64,000 bases of DNA from Geoalkalibacter halelectricus (lineage in GTDB: Bacteria > Desulfobacterota > Desulfuromonadia > Desulfuromonadales > Geoalkalibacteraceae), in assembly GCF_025263685.1 (NCBI RefSeq), contig NZ_CP092109.1, positions 3,039,001 through 3,103,000 of the forward strand. The letters are read 5' to 3'. The position numbers were made by a program, and so were the translations under genes. Every line of letters begins with the position of its first letter. Positions within the stretch are counted from its first letter, which is position 1. Under the pieces are notes generated by a model that made no database searches, was not told the DNA's origin, and saw nothing but the letters and a program-made list of their open reading frames with translations. Shown here piece after piece: positions 9,735-24,269 of this stretch.

Positions 9735-10892
9735 TTACAGCGCTCGCAGGGCTTCGGTCGGATCCATGCGGCTGGCGTGCAGGGCCGGATAGAGCGATGC
9801 CAGGGCGCCGACGATGACCGCCAGCAGAATCGAGCCGCCCATGAGCAGCAGGCTCAGGTCGAAGTGCGGATGCTCGGTGGCGAGAAACGGCAGCAGCGCC
9901 TTGGTGATGCCAATGCCGGACAGGTAACCGAGAATGCCGGCCAGCAGGCTGACCACGAAGGCCTCAAGCAGAATCAGGCCGACCACATGCCCACGGCGGA
10001 AACCCAGGGCGCGGAAAATGCCGATCTCGCGGGTGCGCTCGTTGACCGAACCCATCATGGTGACAAACACCACCAGGGCGCCGATGAACACCACCACCCC
10101 GGCCACGCTCAGGGACAGCAGGCGAAACTGATCAATGGCGTGCATGCGGCTGGCCACCACCTGCTGCAATGCCAGAACGCGGGTATAGGGCAGCACCTCG
10201 GCGATCTGCGCTACGATGACCTCGACGGGGCAGTCGGCGCACAACGCCGCCACCTCGACCAGAGAAATCAGCCCCTGCTTGCCGAGCAGCTCCTGGGCGG
10301 GCGCCAAGGAAGTGATGAGCATGCGGTCGTCCTGCGAACCGGTCTCCTGGAGGATGCCGGTCAGGGTGAAGATGCGGCCGTTGACGGGCACGCTGTCACC
10401 CATGTTCAGACCCAGGGCCGCGGCGACATCTCTGCCCGCCACCATTTCATCATCGGTTTCGGGAGCCCGACCGTCGATGACCCACCAGCGCTTGAGATCA
10501 AATTCAATGTTGCGGTCGACCCCCATGAGCACCACGCGCTGCTCGTTGACGGTCACCGCACCGAGCACCTTGGGCGCCACCGCCGCGATATTGCGCCGCT
10601 CTTCAATGGTGCGGATCAAGGGCAGATCCGCCTCGCGGATGGGTTCATACTGCACCGCTACATCGCCGACGGTAATACCGCCGTAGGAGATGGACAAATC
10701 GTCACTGCGCGGCGTAATGAGAATGTTGGCACCGAACTGATCGAGTTTGTGCTCGGTTTCCATGGTCATGGCTTCGGTGAGCGACACCAGGGCCACCACG
10801 GTGGCGATCCCCACCAGCAAACCGATAACGAGAAAGGCCATACGCGCCTTGCGCCGGCGCAGATTATTGAGAGCAATCGTTTTCAGAGTCAT
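9735..10892 (-). CDS. FtsX/MacB-like ABC transporter permease
   Basis: This 385-residue protein has the MacB/LolC layout: an N-terminal membrane helix (MAFLVIGLLVGIATVVALVS), a large periplasmic MacB_PCD-type domain of about 220 residues, and three C-terminal helices carrying the FtsX motif NERTREIGIFRALGFRRGHV. Type VII transporters use ATP to move periplasmic domains rather than to pump through the membrane. It starts 10 bp after the DUF2318 gene ends. Related permeases accompany DUF2318 proteins in P19-type iron loci of Campylobacter. That parallel is from general knowledge and was not tested here. Confidence 0.87.
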   Translation of the reverse strand: MTLKTIALNNLRRRKARMAFLVIGLLVGIATVVALVSLTEAMTMETEHKLDQFGANILITPRSDDLSISYGGITVGDVAVQYEPIREADLPLIRTIEERRNIAAVAPKVLGAVTVNEQRVVLMGVDRNIEFDLKRWWVIDGRAPETDDEMVAGRDVAAALGLNMGDSVPVNGRIFTLTGILQETGSQDDRMLITSLAPAQELLGKQGLISLVEVAALCADCPVEVIVAQIAEVLPYTRVLALQQVVASRMHAIDQFRLLSLSVAGVVVFIGALVVFVTMMGSVNERTREIGIFRALGFRRGHVVGLILLEAFVVSLLAGILGYLSGIGITKALLPFLATEHPHFDLSLLLMGGSILLAVIVGALASLYPALHASRMDPTEALRAL

Positions 10893-10902
10893 CGTTCACC
10901 AC

Positions 10903-11421
10903 TTAACGCGTTGTAGGAGGAAAATAACCGACGCCCGCCTTGATGTCGGCCTCGGCGATCAAGACCATGCCGTCGCGTACCACCCGATCGAGGGGCGCGG
11001 GGTTGCAGCCGCCCTTGAGTTCGTTGATCTGCGTCGAGGCAAAGCGCTGATTGCAGGCGATGCACACCATGGAATCACCGTCCTGGCGATAGCCCAGGCG
11101 GTCGCGGAAGCAAACATCGCAGGCATCGAAGGCCGCCCGGATCACCCCGTCGCTGCTCTTGAGGACGAAGAAATTGATGGTGGCGTTGCCGTCGCGAAAG
11201 CTGAAGAAATGGGCCTTGCCGTCACTGACCTGGGCTGCCGGAATGCTCACCATTCCATTTTGCGCGGCCACCGCCGGATAGCCACCGGAGCCGCCGCCCA
11301 GCAGGCCCCAGCCTGCCACGGCCAAAAGCGCGGCCACCACGACCGCGGCAACGACCAGTAGAGGTTTTTTGTTGGATCCTTGCTGTTCAAACTGGGCTTT
11401 TTTTTCCTGACGATCCGTCAT
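10903..11421 (-). CDS. DUF2318 cysteine-rich membrane-anchored protein
   Basis: This 172-residue protein has a cytosolic N-terminus, one membrane helix (about residues 20-42) and an exported domain with the DUF2318 cysteine pattern: ACDVCF, then VCIACNQRF, then GGC. These cysteines are thought to bind a metal or Fe-S centre in the family. The ATG at 11421 is preceded by GGAG. It sits between an HMA/SurA-like protein and the ABC permease. DUF2318 proteins occur in periplasmic iron or copper handling loci, so an electron-transfer or metal-relay role is a reasonable inference. Confidence 0.85.
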   Translation of the reverse strand: MTDRQEKKAQFEQQGSNKKPLLVVAAVVVAALLAVAGWGLLGGGSGGYPAVAAQNGMVSIPAAQVSDGKAHFFSFRDGNATINFFVLKSSDGVIRAAFDACDVCFRDRLGYRQDGDSMVCIACNQRFASTQINELKGGCNPAPLDRVVRDGMVLIAEADIKAGVGYFPPTTR

Positions 11422-11513
11422 CGCAGAGAACTCCTTTCAGCGCTTGATTTATAGATAAGACGAAGAGTGAAACTCCAAATTTCCGCAGCCGGCAAGCGTA
11501 AGCGAGGTCGACC

Positions 11514-12341
11514 TCAGCAGCACCCACCGCGACCGGCGTTGTTGAGCATGGGATCAAAAATCCGCACCGGAATGCGCACTCCGATCTCCTGCACGCGGCG
11601 CTCGACGAGCATCTGCCGCAGGCGCGGATCCTGCTCGCCGTTGATGACGTTTTGCTCCAGGTGCCGGCTGATGGTGAGGTCGCTCCGCAGGCGCTCGACA
11701 AAGGCCTCCAGGCTACCGAAGCGTGCCGCGGCAAGTTGATCGAAATTCGGCATGGACTGGCGCATGGTTTCGATCTCCTCCCGGGCTTCCTCGGCGCTGA
11801 CCGCGACGGCGCTGGCCGCGGCATCGGCAAGCAGCAGCTCGCGCTGGACCAGATTGCGCCACGCCTGGCCGGCCACGGCCGGGGAGATGAATCCGTCCGG
11901 GGTTCCGCCGGTCATGCTGACCAGATACTGGCCGAATTCCTCGCGCGACACCAGGCGCTCACCAATCTGCCCCACGTACTTGACGGCCAGTTCGCGCTGT
12001 GCCTGCTGCTCGGCCTGAATTTGCTCAAGATCCATCACGCTCAGCAATTGCGCCGGATAGCCGGCCTCGCTCACGGCGAAGGCGATGCGTTCAGCGTCGA
12101 TCCGCTGCGGATCAAAGGCCACGCGGGCGCTGCCGGCCGCGAGATTCACTTCCACGCTCCCGACGCCGGGCAAACCGCGCGCGGCCTTCTGCACGCGTCC
12201 GGAACAGGCGCCGCAAGTCATGCCTTGCACACGAAGTTCGGCAAAGGTCGTGGCCTCGGAGGAACGCTGCCCGAACACGGCGTAGGCCGCCGCGACCGCA
12301 ACCAGCACCAAGACCAGGGAAACGAGCCAGCGAGATTTCAT
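11514..12341 (-). CDS. Membrane-anchored HMA-domain / SurA-N-like fusion protein
   Basis: The 275-residue product has an N-terminal membrane helix or signal anchor (about residues 4-22), then a heavy-metal-associated domain (about 32-98) with the metal motif GMTCGAC (Cys43 and Cys46), and then a helical segment of about 130 residues resembling the N-terminal chaperone domain of SurA/PpiC proteins (RLVSREEFGQYL, NLVQRELLLADAAAS, VSAEEAREEIETM). It ends in a vicinal cysteine pair (GGCC). No PpiC isomerase domain is present. The ATG at 12341 has an AAAGG site. It is the first gene of the metal-linked cluster. HMA domains usually carry Cu(I) or similar ions; joining one to a chaperone domain on the periplasmic side is unusual. 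Confidence 0.8.
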   Translation of the reverse strand: MKSRWLVSLVLVLVAVAAAYAVFGQRSSEATTFAELRVQGMTCGACSGRVQKAARGLPGVGSVEVNLAAGSARVAFDPQRIDAERIAFAVSEAGYPAQLLSVMDLEQIQAEQQAQRELAVKYVGQIGERLVSREEFGQYLVSMTGGTPDGFISPAVAGQAWRNLVQRELLLADAAASAVAVSAEEAREEIETMRQSMPNFDQLAAARFGSLEAFVERLRSDLTISRHLEQNVINGEQDPRLRQMLVERRVQEIGVRIPVRIFDPMLNNAGRGGCC

Positions 12342-12680
12342 GCGGATTCTACCTTTCAAGAATAAATAAGTTGGCCGTGACAGACGGTGAGCACTCAAGA
12401 TCGACAAGCACCGCGCGGAGCTTTCATGTCTGGTCGTGCTCCAGCGACCGCCGAGGATAATTCCTATCAGTTTTCGTGCCAACCAGACACTATTTGATAA
12501 ACAACTGAAATAACTAGAAACTTTCTTTGAGGTTGGCGAGAATGGAAAGCCCTAAGTGTAGAAAATTCACTACCTGTTGTGGAATATTCTTCAAATCGAG
12601 GGGAATTGGAGCTTGCCGAAAACGCCCTGCCCTCTTCACAATAGGCGCTTGCCGCGCAGCGACGCCACAGGAGTTCAGAC
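12342..12680. other. Intergenic region with divergent promoters, no gene seen
   Basis: These 339 bp lie between the divergent HMA-fusion gene and the SpoU methyltransferase gene. The sequence is more AT-rich than its surroundings. Short open frames exist on both strands but none has a convincing ribosome site, family motif or codon bias. It presumably holds the two promoters. Confidence 0.5.
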
Positions 12681-14731: not shown

Positions 14732-14971
14732 TCAGGCGTGTCCGCAATCGCTCAGCAGGCCAGTTTCGCACAGCCAACGGCGAATGCCCGGCAATTCGGC
14801 ACGAAAATTCCGCAACATCTCCTCAGCTTGCCCGGAGGAAAAAACCTCGTCGAGGTCAACATTATGGATCATCTCCTCCCTGACCATGGCGTCGAAGAGC
14901 TCGCCGGCTCCCTCCAGGGGCCGCCCGGAGGCCTCGGCAAGGATTTGTACAATGATGTCGCGACGTGTCAT
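14732..14971 (-). CDS. Small acidic hypothetical protein
   Basis: This 79-residue product is acidic and predicted helical (MTRRDIIVQILAEASGRPLE at the start). It has no signal peptide or membrane helix and contains two cysteines near the C-terminus. The ATG at 14971 has a GAGGAA about 13 nt upstream. No family is recognised. It stands alone between the palindromic block and the rhodanese gene, so little can be said of its role. The reading frame and codon use look genuine. Confidence 0.55.
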   Translation of the reverse strand: MTRRDIIVQILAEASGRPLEGAGELFDAMVREEMIHNVDLDEVFSSGQAEEMLRNFRAELPGIRRWLCETGLLSDCGHA

Positions 14972-15062
14972 GGATCGCTTTGAATTCCTCGAGGGTGCAA
15001 GATGAACATTTATTTAAATTTTACTAATTCCATTATGGCACAAAATTGACCATCCGCAACCC

Positions 15063-15096
15063 AAGGGGGAGGAAAGCCGCTGCTTGCCTCCCCCTT
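15063..15096. terminator. Hairpin downstream of the rhodanese gene
   Basis: AAGGGGGAGG at 15063-15072 pairs exactly with CCTCCCCCTT at 15087-15096 around a 14-nt loop. It lies 27 bp beyond the stop of the minus-strand rhodanese gene. There is no long T-run on that side, so its terminator function is tentative. Confidence 0.5.
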
Positions 15097-15122
15097 TTGC
15101 GCTATGGAACGATGACGTACCC

Positions 15123-15533
15123 TCACTCACGCGGCTCGGTCGGAAACCCCGACTTAAACCAGGCATCCCAACCGCCACGCAGGGCATAGACATCACGGAA
15201 ACCGAGGTTTTTCAGTTGCAGCGCCAGACTGGCGCTGGTGCCTTCGTTGGGTCAAGCGCAATACAGAACCAGGGTGTCGTTCTTATCGTAGCGATCGGCC
15301 CAGGAAATCTGCCTCGGATCCTCGCGCACCGCCCCGGGGATTTTCACCTCGGCCCGGCGCCACTCTCCAGGTGTGCGCGCATCAATGATGACCAGATCGC
15401 TCTCGCCGAGGCGCCCATGGAGTTGCTCCAGGCTCATGCGCGCCACCCCATCTGTGTCCGGGTAAACCGTGGTGCAGCCGGCCACGACCAGGGCGATCAA
15501 CACTGCCAAGAATGTAAATGCCTTGAGTCTCAT
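15123..15533 (-). CDS. Rhodanese-like lipoprotein with in-frame UGA (probable selenoprotein)
   Basis: Reading through the TGA at 15254-15252 gives a 136-residue lipoprotein. It has a lipobox (VAGC, Cys20), then a single rhodanese domain with DARTPGEWRRAEVKIPGA, the active-site loop YCA-U-PNEGTS (Cys92, UGA codon 94) and the family C-terminus LRGGWDAWFKSGFP. Read as a stop, the protein would lose the last third of the domain. A hairpin with a GU-containing loop follows the UGA at the right distance for a bacterial SECIS, and a selenium cluster lies 4 kb away. Cysteine at this site is common in relatives. The ATG at 15533 follows AGGAGG. A stop mutation is the alternative reading. Confidence 0.82.
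15219..15237 (-). promoter_or_regulatory. Candidate SECIS element
   Basis: Fourteen nucleotides after the UGA, CAGCGCC and GGCGCTG form a perfect 7-bp stem closing a 5-nt loop AGUCU, which contains the GU expected to contact SelB. Stem position and loop resemble the E. coli fdhF element (loop AGGUCU). This is judged from pairing by eye, not from a folding calculation. Confidence 0.7.
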
Positions 15534-15806
15534 ACCAATCACCTCCTGGCTGGCTCCGCGGGCACCGGCACAAATTCAGCCGGGATTCCGCAGCATCCAA
15601 AAGGATTCTGATCCTTGCTTTTGATCATTGTTTTATTTAAACAGATCAAGAGCGCTCTTCAAGGATTGCCTGCGGCACGCACCGGAATAAGCCATGCTTG
15701 AATCCGGCCGGCACGCCTCCTTCATTGATTTTCCCCCGTTCTTGGGCCATCATACCAGGCAAAACCAAGCCCCGGAAACCAGCGCCAAGCTCCAAAGGAG
15801 TCACGC

Positions 15807-16238
15807 ATGACGCTTCTCACCGCCGTTGTTGCCCTGATTTGGGGAATCGTCGCCGGCTATCTGATCATCCGCTTCGCCGACAGCCTGATCGCCCTCGGCG
15901 TCTGCGCGCACGGGCTTTACCGCAGCCGCTGGCAGCGCTTGAGCGACAAGGCGCACACGACACGCATCAACCCAGGCATCATTTTGCGCCTGATGGTGCG
16001 CATCAGCCTTTTCGCCTTGGCGTTTGCCTTTCTTCTGCGCCTTGGTCATTACTTCAGCGTGCAAAAATTGGGGTTCGAATACCAGGGGCTGGGTGTTCTT
16101 CTCTGGGGTGCCGCGGCCCTCGGCACGGCGGCGAGCCGCCTGTCCTCGGTGCGACAAAGAATTATCTACGTCCGGCGCATGAGCCATGAATATGACTATG
16201 CCGAAAAACGCCGCAGAACCCAGATGCTCAGGAGCTGA
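15807..16238 (+). CDS. Hypothetical membrane protein
   Basis: This 143-residue protein has three or four predicted membrane helices: residues about 3-22, a second near 56-77 (MVRISLFALAFAFLLRL) and a third around 94-112. The C-terminus is strongly basic (EKRRRTQMLRS) and probably cytosolic. The ATG follows AAAGGAG at 15794-15800. No family is recognised and no cysteine or histidine motif stands out. It precedes mgtE by 310 bp, too far to assume an operon. A function cannot be assigned. Confidence 0.7.
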   Translation: MTLLTAVVALIWGIVAGYLIIRFADSLIALGVCAHGLYRSRWQRLSDKAHTTRINPGIILRLMVRISLFALAFAFLLRLGHYFSVQKLGFEYQGLGVLLWGAAALGTAASRLSSVRQRIIYVRRMSHEYDYAEKRRRTQMLRS

Positions 16239-19668: not shown

Positions 19669-20862
19669 TCAAAGATTCCCGGCAATGTCGCCGAGGGCGT
19701 CCGTCGCCCGGTCGATTTCGTCCTCGGTTGTGAACAGTCCGAAGGAAAAGCGCATGCTGCCCCGCGGATAGGTGCCGAGGGTCTGGTGCGCCAGGGGGGC
19801 GCAATGCAAGCCCGAGCGGCCACAAATCCGGTAATCCTCGGAGAGGCGCTCTTGCAGCAGGGAATTGTCCAGGCCCCGCAGATTGAAGGCGACCACGCCC
19901 GTGGCGGCATCCTGCGCATGGGTGTAAAAGGTCAGGCCGTCGATGCGTCGCTCGCAGCGCGTCATGAAATATTCGACCAGATGCTTTTTCCTGGCCCTTA
20001 AGGTCTCCAAGCCACCGGGCAAGGTGCGCAGACAGGCGATGCCGGCCTGCCAGCCGGCCAGGCCGGCAAGGTTCAAGGTTCCCGACTCCAGCCGATCGGG
20101 AAGAAATTCGGGCTGGGTCATCTGATCGGAGAGGCTGCCGGTGCCGCCGAATCGCAAAGGCTTGAGCGCCCGGTGGTCGACATTTTCACCGAGCAGCAGC
20201 GCGCCGGTGCCGGTGGGGCCGTAGAGGCTTTTGTGCCCAGCGACGGCAAGCAGATCGATGGAGTCGCGGCGCAGGTCGATGTCAATGATTCCGGCGGACT
20301 GGGCCGCATCGGCCAAAAACAGCACCCCGTTCTGCCGGCAAATTTCGCCCAGGGGTGCCAATGGCTGGACATGTCCGGTGACATTGGAGGCGTGGCACAA
20401 GGCGAGCATGCGGGTATTGGCGCGCAGGGCGCGCCGCAGATCATCCGCATCGATGGTGCCCCGATGATCCCCGCGCAACAGGGTCAGCTCGATCTCGCCC
20501 TGGTCGGCCAGATGCCGCAGCGGGCGAATGACGCTGTTGTGCTCCAGGGGGCCGCAGATGACATGGTCGCCGCGCCGACACAGACCCAGGATGGCCAGAT
20601 TAAGCGCCTCGGTGGTATTGGCGGTAAAAATCACCCGCATGGGGTCCTTGAGGCCGAACAGCCCGGCCAGGGCCCGACGCGTGCGAAACACCAGCTCACC
20701 CGACTGCTGGGACAAATAATGACCAGAGCGGCCCGCATTGGCGCCGACCCGGGTCAGATAATCCTGCACCGCATCAACCACCACCCGCGGCTTGGGGAAG
20801 GTGGTGGCCGCATTGTCGAAATAGATGCCGTCATCGGCTAATGGAATAAACGGTATGTCCAT
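19669..20862 (-). CDS. Class V aminotransferase / cysteine desulfurase family (selenium-linked)
   Basis: This 397-residue PLP enzyme resembles NifS/SufS-like desulfurases. It shows YFDNAATTFPKP at the N-terminus, VAGHKSLYGPTG with the PLP lysine (Lys211) and the active-site loop RSGLHCAPLAH with Cys354. It belongs to the subgroup found beside yedE, yedF and DUF3343, thought to mobilise selenium or sulfur from selenocysteine or cysteine. The ATG at 20862 lies inside the 3' end of yedF (32-bp overlap), with GAGAGG 3 nt upstream. An earlier start at 20922 would overlap yedF even more. Confidence 0.9.
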   Translation of the reverse strand: MDIPFIPLADDGIYFDNAATTFPKPRVVVDAVQDYLTRVGANAGRSGHYLSQQSGELVFRTRRALAGLFGLKDPMRVIFTANTTEALNLAILGLCRRGDHVICGPLEHNSVIRPLRHLADQGEIELTLLRGDHRGTIDADDLRRALRANTRMLALCHASNVTGHVQPLAPLGEICRQNGVLFLADAAQSAGIIDIDLRRDSIDLLAVAGHKSLYGPTGTGALLLGENVDHRALKPLRFGGTGSLSDQMTQPEFLPDRLESGTLNLAGLAGWQAGIACLRTLPGGLETLRARKKHLVEYFMTRCERRIDGLTFYTHAQDAATGVVAFNLRGLDNSLLQERLSEDYRICGRSGLHCAPLAHQTLGTYPRGSMRFSFGLFTTEDEIDRATDALGDIAGNL

Positions 20863-21043
20863 TTTCCTCTCGGACGTCGAATTTGATTTTCTTGCCCTCC
20901 AGGGTGCGCCGGATGTTATCACAGGATGCTCCTCTGTCCATAATTACATCGAAGGAGTCCTCAGGTTCGGCCAGGGCCTGAAGCACCAGAACGACCGGTT
21001 GCGGACAAGACAGCCCACGTGCGTCGACGACTTTTTTTCCCAT
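20831..21043 (-). CDS. yedF: YedF/TusA-like sulfurtransferase (short, TusA domain only)
   Basis: The 70-residue protein is a TusA/SirA-type domain with the diagnostic DARGLSCPQPVV motif (active Cys) and a second cysteine in RGASCDNIRR. Full-length selenium-linked YedF has about 200 residues with an additional C-terminal DsrE-like domain that is missing here. Whether this is a natural short form or a loss is not clear. The ATG at 21043 has AAGGAG at 9-nt spacing and is preferred over the ATG at 21049. The gene lies between yedE and the class V aminotransferase. Confidence 0.85.
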   Translation of the reverse strand: MGKKVVDARGLSCPQPVVLVLQALAEPEDSFDVIMDRGASCDNIRRTLEGKKIKFDVREENGHTVYSISR

Positions 21044-21069
21044 AATCATTCACTCCTTAGACTGTTGAA

Positions 21070-22158
21070 TCAAGCAGGTGTTCGGCGCTTTTCGACCATG
21101 ACCCAACCAATGGTCAAGCAGAAGACCAGCCCTACACCGACCCCCCAGGGGCCGAAGGCGCCGACCCCCGCGGGCGAACTGGCCATGGCGAAGTTGTGGC
21201 TGAAGGCCGCGCCCACCACCATGCCCAGGACAAACACCCCGGCATCGCCGTCGCCTTCGCCGGCAAGGATCAATTGACGACCGGGACAGCCGCCTGCCAG
21301 GCAAAATGCCAACCCGGCCAGGACCATGCCGAGAACATTCCAGACATGCAAATTATGAGCGATGGGCTGACCGCTGAAGCCGGGAGAAAACTGACCCAGC
21401 ACCAGATTGACCGCGAAGGCGGTGAGCACCAGGGCTGCTACCCCGTAGAACAGGTGCAGGTCGCGGCTGATGAAAAGATCGCGCAGGGATCCCATGGTGC
21501 AGAAGCGGCTGCGCTGCGCCAGAGCACCAAAGGCCAGACCAGCGATCAGGCTGATGAACAGCGGCGCGCGGGCGGCGCCCGGGCCCTGGGTGCTGAAGAA
21601 GAGGGGAAGACCCTCGCCGAAGGAAATCTCAAAGGCGACCAGGAACAGCAGCCCCAGCATCAGGCCGGGCATGACGAAACCCGCCGCCTTGGCCGGATAC
21701 ACCTGGGAGCGATGCAGCGTATAGCCGCGCTTGAGAAACAGGGAGCCGATGTAGATGCCGCCCGCCAGACCGATCAGGCCGAGAACGGCGTTCCAGTCGC
21801 CGCCCGCCAGGCGCAGCAGCGCCCGCCAGGGACAACCGAGAAAAACCAGCGCCCCGATCATGGCGAAAACCCCGAGGAAAAAGCGAATCAGGGGAGAAGA
21901 ACCGCCGCGCGCCCGAAACTCGCGCCCCAGCAAAGCCACCACCATGGCCCCAAGAACCACGCCGATGATCTCCGGCCGCAGGTATTGCACCACCGCCGCG
22001 CGGTGCAGACCCAGGGCACCGGCGATGTCCCGCTCGAAACACGCGACGCAAATGCCCATATTTTTGGGGTTGCCGAGATACTGCAACACCGGGGCGAGGA
22101 TCCCGATGACGATGCCGGTGGTGATGATGCCCTTACGCGATGCGAAAAAATTATTCAT
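21070..22158 (-). CDS. yedE: YedE family putative selenium transporter
   Basis: This 362-residue integral membrane protein of the YeeE/YedE (sulphur transport) superfamily has about ten helices. Two half-repeats carry the conserved Gly-Cys-Pro motifs FLGCPWRALLRL (Cys109) and LAGGCPGRQLIL, plus the YedE-specific NMGICVACFERDIAGALGLH near the N-terminus. YedE proteins co-occur with selenium utilisation and are proposed to import a selenium compound. The ATG at 22158 follows AAGGAGAGG; a TTG at 22164 is less likely. It is the first gene of the selenium operon, with a sigma-70-like promoter 85 bp upstream. Confidence 0.92.
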   Translation of the reverse strand: MNNFFASRKGIITTGIVIGILAPVLQYLGNPKNMGICVACFERDIAGALGLHRAAVVQYLRPEIIGVVLGAMVVALLGREFRARGGSSPLIRFFLGVFAMIGALVFLGCPWRALLRLAGGDWNAVLGLIGLAGGIYIGSLFLKRGYTLHRSQVYPAKAAGFVMPGLMLGLLFLVAFEISFGEGLPLFFSTQGPGAARAPLFISLIAGLAFGALAQRSRFCTMGSLRDLFISRDLHLFYGVAALVLTAFAVNLVLGQFSPGFSGQPIAHNLHVWNVLGMVLAGLAFCLAGGCPGRQLILAGEGDGDAGVFVLGMVVGAAFSHNFAMASSPAGVGAFGPWGVGVGLVFCLTIGWVMVEKRRTPA

Positions 22159-22245
22159 GCCCAATCCTCTCCTTCATAACTCCGCGCCGGCGCCTGGCAC
22201 CCACGCAAAATAGAAACGCGAACAAATACCGGTAAAATCTGCGCG

Positions 22246-22710: not shown

Positions 22711-23625
22711 TCAGGGTCCCTCCTCCCATCGCCAAGCGGCGGGATTCCACATCGCAGCATTCGGCCGTTCGTTGCAGACAGGGTCGATAAAGGTTTCGAG
22801 GCGCGCCATGGCCTCCGGCAAAGTCAGGTCCGTGGACAAACGGCTGCGACGCAGAAAGGCCTGCCATTGGGTGGTCTTGTCCGGATTGGCCGTGAATCGG
22901 GGGGAGAAAATCACCCGGCGATCGTCAAGGGGCGTAGCCCGCCGGGCGAAAGTTGTCATGATTGCTTCCCACAAGGTCGCCCAAGAGAAGCGCTCCCGTT
23001 CCGCCAGATGGAGGATATCGTAAATGTCCTTCATCCGGCTGGTAAGCAAGCTCAGGCTCACCAGGGCCTCAAATTTTTCACCGATGGCGGACTCCCGCGA
23101 ATAGACCAGCAGATGCGGCGGCGCCTGATCCTCCAGCAGCACCGGGAAATCGATCGCCACCGGCCCGGCCACCACCACGTCACCTAAGCCGATATCAAGC
23201 TGCAGCACTTTCCTGGCCGTCGTCAGTCGTGCTTCCAGCTGGACCCGTATTCCGGCATAGTCGGCATCTTCGGTGATTCGTTCGACGCGAATCGTCTCCG
23301 GCAGAAACTCCGCCCCATCGGCAAAGCCCAGCCCGGCGACCGCCGCGATCAGATTTCGGACGGCCTCCAGGTCGTTCGGGGTGGAAGCACCGAGAAAATC
23401 GATATCCCGGGTGGGCCGCAGCAGCGACATCTCATACGCGAGGAACAGCAGCGCCCCCTTGAGGATCAGGTGCTGCCGGTAAGGAGATTGCCCCAGTCGA
23501 TAGAGGAAGCGCTCTTGCAAATACTGGAGCAGCACGGCATCGAAATCCCGTCCGCTGTCCCGGGAAATTTTCAGTAAGCGGTCGCGGACGGAAGCGGCGA
23601 TATTTCTGCCCGACTGCTGCGCCAT
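22711..23625 (-). CDS. AbiEii-like nucleotidyltransferase toxin
   Basis: AbiEii is the toxin of type IV abortive-infection systems, a DNA-polymerase-beta-like nucleotidyltransferase. The 304-residue protein carries the N-terminal motif LILKGALLFLAYEM and the metal motif RPTRDIDFLG, then a C-terminal helical region with ESAIGEKFEALVSL and SRMKDIYDILHL, typical of the DUF1814/AbiEii family. The gene begins 1 bp after the antitoxin-like gene ends, the usual antitoxin-toxin order. The GALLF form replaces the more frequent GGT or GS-type motif. It appears complete. Confidence 0.88.
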   Translation of the reverse strand: MAQQSGRNIAASVRDRLLKISRDSGRDFDAVLLQYLQERFLYRLGQSPYRQHLILKGALLFLAYEMSLLRPTRDIDFLGASTPNDLEAVRNLIAAVAGLGFADGAEFLPETIRVERITEDADYAGIRVQLEARLTTARKVLQLDIGLGDVVVAGPVAIDFPVLLEDQAPPHLLVYSRESAIGEKFEALVSLSLLTSRMKDIYDILHLAERERFSWATLWEAIMTTFARRATPLDDRRVIFSPRFTANPDKTTQWQAFLRRSRLSTDLTLPEAMARLETFIDPVCNERPNAAMWNPAAWRWEEGP

Positions 23626-23626
23626 A

Positions 23627-24223
23627 TCAGGCCACCAGTGCTTTCAGGTAGGGGAGCATGACCGTCTTCGCCTGGCAGATAGCGGCGTACTCCAGCAGTC
23701 GCGGAATGTTGGCATCCTTGCGTTTCAGATACTCCTTCAGCCCCTCCAGGGCGAGATCTTCCCCGAGCTTTCGGCGGTAGCGGAACAGGTCGCCGATCGT
23801 CTTTTCCGGACCATAGATCCGAATTTCCCCGGCGGGGGTGGATACTTTTTCGATGCCGGGGAGATAGAACCGCTCGCGGAAGTAGAAGGGCTTGATCGGC
23901 GGGTAGTGCATACGCGGCGGCTTGTCCCCGTGTGGGATGGCGACATAGACCTCGGAGGGGTTGAAGGTGGTCAGGCCGTGGTAATCCAGGGCGGAAATGA
24001 GGCAGATCACTCCATCCGGAATGGCGTGGCAGACATCGACCAGGCCGGCATGCTCGGCGGAGTCGACGAGATCGGCAAGGCGGTACAGGCCCGGCTTGAC
24101 CCGCTCGATGAGACCGGCGGCGACCTGGTCGGAGATCTCGCGGGTCTGGAATCCTGCGGCTCGCAGGTCCTTCATGCGGGCATAACCTCCGGTGGATTTG
24201 AGGTAATCGATAAGTTTATTCAT
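23627..24223 (-). CDS. AbiEi-like antitoxin / transcriptional regulator
   Basis: The 198-residue protein has an N-terminal winged-helix AbiEi_4-type region (MNKLIDYLKSTGGYARMKDL, then RAAGFQTREISDQVAAGLIE) and the longer AbiEi C-terminal domain (CLISALDYHGLTTFNPSEVY, GPEKTIGDLFRYRRKLGED). AbiEi proteins repress their own operon and neutralise AbiEii. The ATG at 24223 with AGAAGG fits the family start; a TTG at 24250 would place the N-terminus within the palindromic operator and is rejected. Confidence 0.88.
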   Translation of the reverse strand: MNKLIDYLKSTGGYARMKDLRAAGFQTREISDQVAAGLIERVKPGLYRLADLVDSAEHAGLVDVCHAIPDGVICLISALDYHGLTTFNPSEVYVAIPHGDKPPRMHYPPIKPFYFRERFYLPGIEKVSTPAGEIRIYGPEKTIGDLFRYRRKLGEDLALEGLKEYLKRKDANIPRLLEYAAICQAKTVMLPYLKALVA

Positions 24224-24240
24224 GCGCCTTCTAGTCGTTT

Positions 24241-24269
24241 TTTCTGCCAATGTAATTTATTGGCAGAAA
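24241..24269. promoter_or_regulatory. Palindromic operator candidate of the AbiE pair
   Basis: TTTCTGCCAAT and ATTGGCAGAAA are perfect 11-bp inverted repeats separated by 7 bp. They lie 18 bp upstream of the antitoxin start. AbiEi antitoxins are known to bind inverted repeats in their own promoter. Confidence 0.65.

Follow-up and report, generated by a model that had tools for sequence, protein, structure and literature searches.

A rhodanese-related gene of Geoalkalibacter halelectricus with an in-frame UGA, very probably read as selenocysteine, and its double-UGA relatives

Introduction

Rhodanese-like proteins containing selenocysteine (Sec) have been described before. In its entry for form 3 of the rhodanese-like domain-containing proteins, a 2026 review (PMC13188914) lists the NCBIfam family NF041203 with the arrangement CxU and cites Zhang and Gladyshev (2005) as reference 13. 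The corresponding entry in PMC9312934 gives the CxU rhodanese as form 2 of COG0607, with the same example protein and without an NCBIfam number. Another selenoprotein with a rhodanese domain, TsoB (NF045694), is described in PMC13188914 as a rhodanese/DsbD fusion-like protein with two Sec residues. In addition, ExtH, a rhodanese-like lipoprotein of 49 kDa, belongs to the extHIJKL electron-conduit cluster of Geobacter, and the passages on this cluster in PMC6148476 and PMC5877670 mention Sec for ExtKL and not for ExtH.

The solved structures related by profile to the family studied here include GlpE (7.4e-11) and 1qxn (sulfide dehydrogenase, 4.4e-9). We take 1qxn to be Sud, the periplasmic polysulfide-sulfur transferase of Wolinella succinogenes, a polysulfide-binding rhodanese. 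By profile it is likewise a single-domain rhodanese, and it is presumably exported, but it is assumed to use a single catalytic Cys, without Sec. The active-site loop of rhodaneses usually has six residues.

Then, how does a small rhodanese gene of Geoalkalibacter halelectricus compare with these systems? The gene lies in a stretch of 64,000 nucleotides (contig NZ_CP092109.1, positions 3,039,001 to 3,103,000), hereafter the window, in which positions are counted from the first letter. An original prediction, made from the sequence, had described a rhodanese lipoprotein with an in-frame UGA that probably encodes Sec. Here, we show that the gene is a further member of an already known selenoprotein family, which is in print as well as among the NCBI annotation models, and we describe the residues around the UGA, the hairpin behind it and the relatives that carry a second UGA.

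The gene and its family

The features of the locus are collected in Table 1. Translation of the minus strand, a strand that the original prediction had left unnamed, agrees with that prediction in giving a rhodanese with a predicted lipobox, an in-frame UGA at codon 94 and 42 further sense codons up to a proper UGA stop. The gene starts at an ATG (15533-15531) and stops at 15125-15123, and the read-through product would span MRLKAFTFLAVLIALVVAGC to LRGGWDAWFKSGFPTEPRE, 136 residues with Sec at position 94.

Table 1. Features of the rhodanese locus and its surroundings in the window
Feature	Position	Strand	Remark
Predicted rhodanese-related selenoprotein gene (NF041203 family)	15123..15533	minus	136 residues, Sec at 94
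Predicted signal peptide ending in lipobox V-A-G-C, Cys = residue 20	15474..15533	minus	from translation
Codon 92, Cys (UGC), two residues N-terminal of Sec94	15258..15260	minus	
In-frame UGA, codon 94, very probably read as selenocysteine	15252..15254	minus	UGA in 120/147 relatives
Putative SECIS hairpin CAGCGCC-AGUCU-GGCGCUG	15219..15237	minus	14 nt 3' of UGA
AGGAGG ribosome-binding site, 8 nt before ATG	15542..15547	minus	from sequence
TIGR01977 cysteine desulfurase family protein and YedE-family putative selenium transporter (TIGR04112)	19669..22164	minus	NCBIfam

The read-through protein matches NF041203 (rhodanese_LYCAU, entitled 'rhodanese-related (seleno)protein') with 146.7 bits, above the curated cut-off of 115, residues 14-135 falling on positions 4-126 of the 126 in the model, and PF00581 (Rhodanese) with 54.1 bits against a gathering threshold of 22.2. 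The LYCAU motif occupies residues 90-94. With the TsoB model NF045694 the score is 21.2 bits against a cut-off of 805; TsoB shares a rhodanese domain with Sec, but differs as a fusion with two Sec. The gene of the sister species (G001), 64% identical, has one TGA inside, at the same codon 94. Compared by description only, ExtH is also a rhodanese-type lipoprotein of a metal reducer, but it has 49 kDa and belongs to a conduit cluster, whereas the window gene is small and stands alone.

The predicted lipobox, ALVVAGC, was found by eye as well as with a loose pattern, and the sister species has FVGC at the corresponding site. Signal peptide and lipobox together suggest that the protein is placed in the cell envelope. 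The loose pattern flagged 15 of 63 family genes, the window gene among them and some of the flags clearly false, and lipoprotein forms are by this prediction a minority in the family. The window gene has the domain, the LYCAU motif and the Sec two residues after Cys in common with NF041203; most members examined have a signal peptide without a lipobox, and otherwise nothing was found to separate them from it.

Matches to NF041203 that exceed the cut-off occur in 31 of the 277 class genomes and in 60 of 395 genomes sampled from the phylum, 17 of these 395 being from the class. Among the over-cut-off matches listed, 33 of 34 in the class contain one TGA inside and one (G149) contains none, while in the phylum sample 74 of 83 contain at least one TGA, eight are free of stops and one has TAA only; the proportions 33/34 and 74/83 are the figures unselected for TGA. 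A scan of the genome contigs gave one relative, with Cys. The suggestion of rarity finds no support, since NF041203 models the family, two reviews list the CxU rhodanese and the genomes counted above carry members. The lipoprotein form does appear to be the less common one. The expectation that an automated annotator would truncate the gene is also weakened, since NF041203 sits among the NCBI annotation models.

Consensus scans of positions 14900-15850 gave no sigma-70 promoter and no intrinsic terminator; in the whole window, no Rfam family matched at the gathering score and ARAGORN reported no tRNA. Elsewhere in the genome, three more rhodanese-domain ORFs contain an in-frame UGA, namely L025 (305862-306074), L030 (3409994-3410374) and L040 (3851929-3852075), with the motifs CLGRTU, CRGYTU and CAUTAEHSA, respectively. 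The stretches scanned fall below the NCBIfam cut-offs listed, and the three are possibly further selenoprotein rhodaneses.

Residues 92 and 94 among relatives

A profile built from 60 members (alignment A2) was used to search 228 fetched loci, and 147 distinct genes with at least 60 bits were kept as relatives, 19 of the 166 distinct rows being dropped for a score below 60 bits or for want of a matched score. An alignment of homologues at codon 94 had been named beforehand as a check, and Sec or Cys occupies this position in 135 of the 147. Sec is the usual residue (120 relatives) and Cys is found in 15, a ratio of 120 : 15 that is not a population ratio, the loci having been chosen partly for TGA rows and partly for stop-free rows. 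The statement that relatives commonly have Cys there is thus to be reversed, although Cys, in 15 of the 27 relatives without Sec at 94, is the commonest substitute.

Position 92 holds Cys in 128 relatives, Sec in 13 and Ser in six. The combinations of residues 92 and 94 (n = 147) are C/U 107, U/U 13, C/C 10, C/S 6, S/C 5, C/A 2, C/G 2, S/S 1 and C/V 1. In A2 the coding sequence is conserved on both sides of the UGA, the invariant columns being D51, Y91, C92, 94, E97, S100, G111, L118, G121 and W125 (Sec entered as Cys); a single member, L098, has UGA at 92.

The hairpin downstream of the UGA

The sequence bears out the hairpin described earlier, a stem of seven perfect pairs capped by an AGUCU loop behind a spacer of 14 nt (CCCAACGAAGGCAC), which may, as was suggested, resemble the SECIS of fdhF. 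RNA folding had been proposed as a check, and the hairpin does form in RNAfold, which also pairs the outer A-U of the loop and so gives 8 bp and a GUC loop. For a 53-nt piece the energy is -16.4 kcal/mol against a shuffle mean of -10.96 (z = -2.63), with 2 of 200 shuffles as good.

All five core pairs (17-31 to 21-27 after the UGA) are found in 117 of 120 Sec94 genes. When codons were swapped for synonyms at the genes' own codon usage, on average 2.96 of the 120 genes, and at most 10 in 200 trials, had all five. Among relatives without Sec (n = 25; L108 and L111, whose UGA lies a few codons downstream, were excluded) two have all five pairs (reshuffles: mean 0.2, maximum 2). The GUC-type loop begins with G in 120/120 Sec94 genes versus 8/25 without Sec. 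As these counts come from related genes, they are not independent.

Pair 18-30 is U-A in 60, C-G in 47, U-G in 12 and C-A in one of the 120 Sec94 genes. In most genes the pair links the third position of a Ser codon to that of an Ala codon, so that such changes leave the protein unaltered. In a subset of 63 genes analysed earlier, the pair was C-G in 29, U-A in 24, U-G in 10 and C-A in none; in all 63 the Ser codon at +6 is AGY, compared with 167 of 344 other Ser codons in the same genes. Measured over the 48 nt after the UGA against synonymous reshuffles, the folding energy is only modestly low, with z = -1.86 for the window gene and gene-by-gene values from -3.82 to +0.73 among the rows listed of 68. 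The difference in base pairing nevertheless leaves hardly any room for doubting that selection acts on the hairpin as RNA.

Selenocysteine machinery

The genome, a single contig of 4,125,859 bases, was searched for the Sec machinery, as had been proposed for selA, selB, selC and selD: selA (609.5 bits), selB (390.8 bits), selD and tRNA-Sec (75.6 bits, gathering 47) are all present. The genes selD, selB and selA stand side by side at 692-697 kb, and selD carries an in-frame TGA of its own.

Among the 277 class genomes, selB is over cut-off in 236, and since a gene so nearly universal discriminates little, its co-occurrence was dropped as evidence. By E-value, 27 of the 30 class genomes that have an over-cut-off member with TGA also have selB, the match being partial in G022 at least. 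Despite such a member, G015, G020 and G132 give weak selB matches only (1.6e-30, 2.4e-53 and 9.1e-34, respectively), and whereas G015 and G020 do have a tRNA-Sec over cut-off, G132 does not. These three genomes are drafts, 59-99% complete, and the missing selB or tRNA-Sec may be absent draft sequence.

Based on the Sec machinery in the genome, the UGA or Cys conserved at the codon, and the covarying, synonymously constrained hairpin, selenocysteine is the best reading of codon 94. The UGA is very probably decoded as Sec, and the gene is with high confidence taken as that of a Sec-containing rhodanese.

Active site and proposed mechanism

The protein would consist of one rhodanese domain, which is exported to the cell envelope and probably held there by a lipid anchor. 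SelB, carrying Sec-tRNA, would bind the hairpin just 3' of the UGA during translation, so that codon 94 would be decoded as Sec and the active-site loop would contain Cys92-x-Sec94. As nucleophile, Sec94 would take sulfane sulfur from polysulfide, thiosulfate or a persulfide; Cys92 would then resolve the perselenide as a selenenyl-sulfide, and sulfide would be released or the sulfur handed on. A relay of sulfane sulfur or polysulfide in the envelope, which would be comparable with Sud of Wolinella, is proposed because of the signal peptide with lipobox and the profile relationship to GlpE and 1qxn, and it is put forward tentatively, as a function that we hold plausible rather than probable. 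The literature searched gave no tested function for the family, and among the neighbouring genes in the genome there is no conserved one pointing to a substrate.

Which of the two residues would be the nucleophile? The original prediction aligned Cys92 with the catalytic site; the Cys two residues before the UGA is indeed present, but Sec94 may be the nucleophile instead. Counted from Sec94, the loop Sec-P-N-E-G-T would have the usual six residues, and HMMER aligns the 60-member profile to 6mxv with no gap in the loop and with Sec94 opposite the loop Cys in each of the two domains. Moreover, five relatives have Cys94 with Ser92 (YSTCPGDE, YSSCPGDE), all in genomes without an over-cut-off member, although a UxU member scoring under the cut-off occurs in G189. 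We therefore regard Sec94 as the likelier nucleophile.

The main alternative is also a Sec protein, with Cys92 as nucleophile, Sec94 as its partner and a loop of eight residues, which is the layout first proposed. Ordinary rhodaneses have their Cys directly after the strand Tyr, as Cys92 is placed, and the profile alignment of relatives puts the Cys of one of them, L031 (CAVGSRSA), on 92 and not on 94; by counting, this Cys matches Sec94 going back from S100 and Cys92 going from Tyr91. In addition, eight relatives have Cys92 with Ser (six) or Ala (two) at 94. Spare copies would hardly account for all of them, because five come from genomes in which no TGA member exceeds the cut-off (two in G635 and one each in G582, G396 and G423). 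The remaining three, L171, L174 and L175, are in genomes that do have such a member and may be spare copies, and L179, one of the eight, aligns badly in the loop, where it has a further Cys. Weighed against the loop length, the ungapped 6mxv alignment and the relatives with Cys94 only, this layout is the less probable one but still deserves serious consideration, and Sec94 is kept as the preferred nucleophile.

Genomic surroundings

The original prediction had pointed to a selenium cluster 4-7 kb away. It is present in the window (Table 1), where the YedE protein matches TIGR04112 with 486 bits and the TIGR01977 protein is below the SclA cut-off, but it was not found within about 6 kb of the copy in the sister species. 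The YedE and desulfurase-like genes are not among the ORFs of the G001 stretch (12.4 kb, about 6 kb on that side), at the edge of which a YedE gene at 5.5-6.6 kb could fall. In G001, the rhodanese gene stands between the same small protein (44.5% identity) and an MFS transporter (80%), and the further neighbours up to an FtsX-like permease (91.9%) are in the same order as in the window.

The neighbours were also clustered by blastp (788 ORFs from 78 stretches, that is, the window and 77 others). Across the 78 stretches, those of the window group with the sister species only, except for a link between the FtsX permease and L100 and an antisense ORF over the rhodanese gene. A conserved sulfur/selenium operon was considered and rejected, since no such cluster recurs across the 78 stretches and the YedE and desulfurase genes group with none.

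Several other genes were noted around these loci. On the minus strand of the window, positions 9735-12398 encode an FtsX/MacB permease, a protein resembling FtrD and another in which an HMA domain goes with a SurA-like part; the first and the last of these keep their order beside the rhodanese gene in the sister species. Positions 22711-24250 (minus) encode a pair resembling an AbiEii/AbiEi type IV toxin-antitoxin system (PF08843, PF13338). A related, divergent ORF resembling membrane transporters directly precedes the rhodanese gene on the same strand in 11 of the 77 other loci (for example L124:4709-5983, L214:2031-3314 and L217:1977-3278, as well as eight more loci), and its distance to the matched rhodanese region is 30-175 bases in ten loci and 554 in one. 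The three named were scanned: L217 matches AA_permease_2 (Pfam, 68.1 bits; APC-type), L214 has weak NCBIfam matches to amino-acid transporters and L124 gave no match.

Could the rhodanese be a selenium donor or carrier of the envelope, serving uptake and tied to the nearby YedE and desulfurase-like genes? These genes do lie 4-7 kb away. However, the gene order of the sister species breaks on the YedE side after one small gene, and neither gene was found by blastp clustering in the 77 other loci, where most stretches reach 2-6 kb. A role in selenium uptake is therefore unlikely, and the sulfane-sulfur relay is retained as the working proposal.

Other readings of the UGA

It is also conceivable that the UGA acts as a stop, or is read through at a low level with an ordinary amino acid, and that the product is mostly truncated; the Sec protein is, after all, a prediction from the genes. 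Against this, the relatives without Sec have Cys at 94 in 15 of 27, as expected for Sec, the Sec machinery is present in the genome, and E97, S100, G111, G121 and W125, all after the UGA, are invariant in the 60-member alignment. This reading is very improbable. That a nonsense mutation made the gene a pseudogene, as the table 11 ORF might suggest in closing at codon 94 (93 residues counted from the ATG and 96 if a GTG further upstream is the start), is scarcely credible when 120 of 147 relatives share the UGA, the coding sequence is conserved before and after it, and the hairpin has been maintained in the face of synonymous drift. Both were rejected on the conserved UGA and the selected hairpin, and a Sec-containing rhodanese is the reading with which we continue.

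Double-UGA relatives and implications

In 13 of the 147 relatives (L098, L147, L153, L157, L168 and L186-L193), UGA is found at both 92 and 94, giving U-x-U. All 13 keep the five core pairs, with the hairpin after the second UGA, so that the GUC-type loop begins 22 nt past the second UGA and 28 nt past the first. A tree of the 147 rows, in which the two trait columns were masked, requires by parsimony seven to nine changes of the UxU state, depending on the rows counted, and a single clade of the 13 genes is rejected (p-AU 0.0002); good support is, however, limited to 27 of 144 inner branches, which by themselves demand no more than two changes. The tree suggests that the UxU state arose more than once.

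In the literature searched, no description was found of rhodanese chemistry with a Cys-Sec or Sec-Sec pair. A full-text search gave no paper on a UxU rhodanese selenoprotein among the best 15 of 33 matches, and the term UxU is absent from the available portions of PMC13188914. We lean, with some reserve, towards the view that some members are doubly Sec-dependent, one hairpin serving both UGAs, and that the family would be a Cys-Sec or Sec-Sec relay for redox or sulfur in the envelope.

In summary, the first-pass reading of the in-frame UGA as Sec is well supported, and the SECIS of the family has been put into numbers. The interest of the gene rests on the putative function of the family and on the UxU forms. 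Together, the Cys-x-Sec and Sec-x-Sec forms raise the question of whether a selenium pair moves or reduces sulfane sulfur in the envelope of these bacteria.
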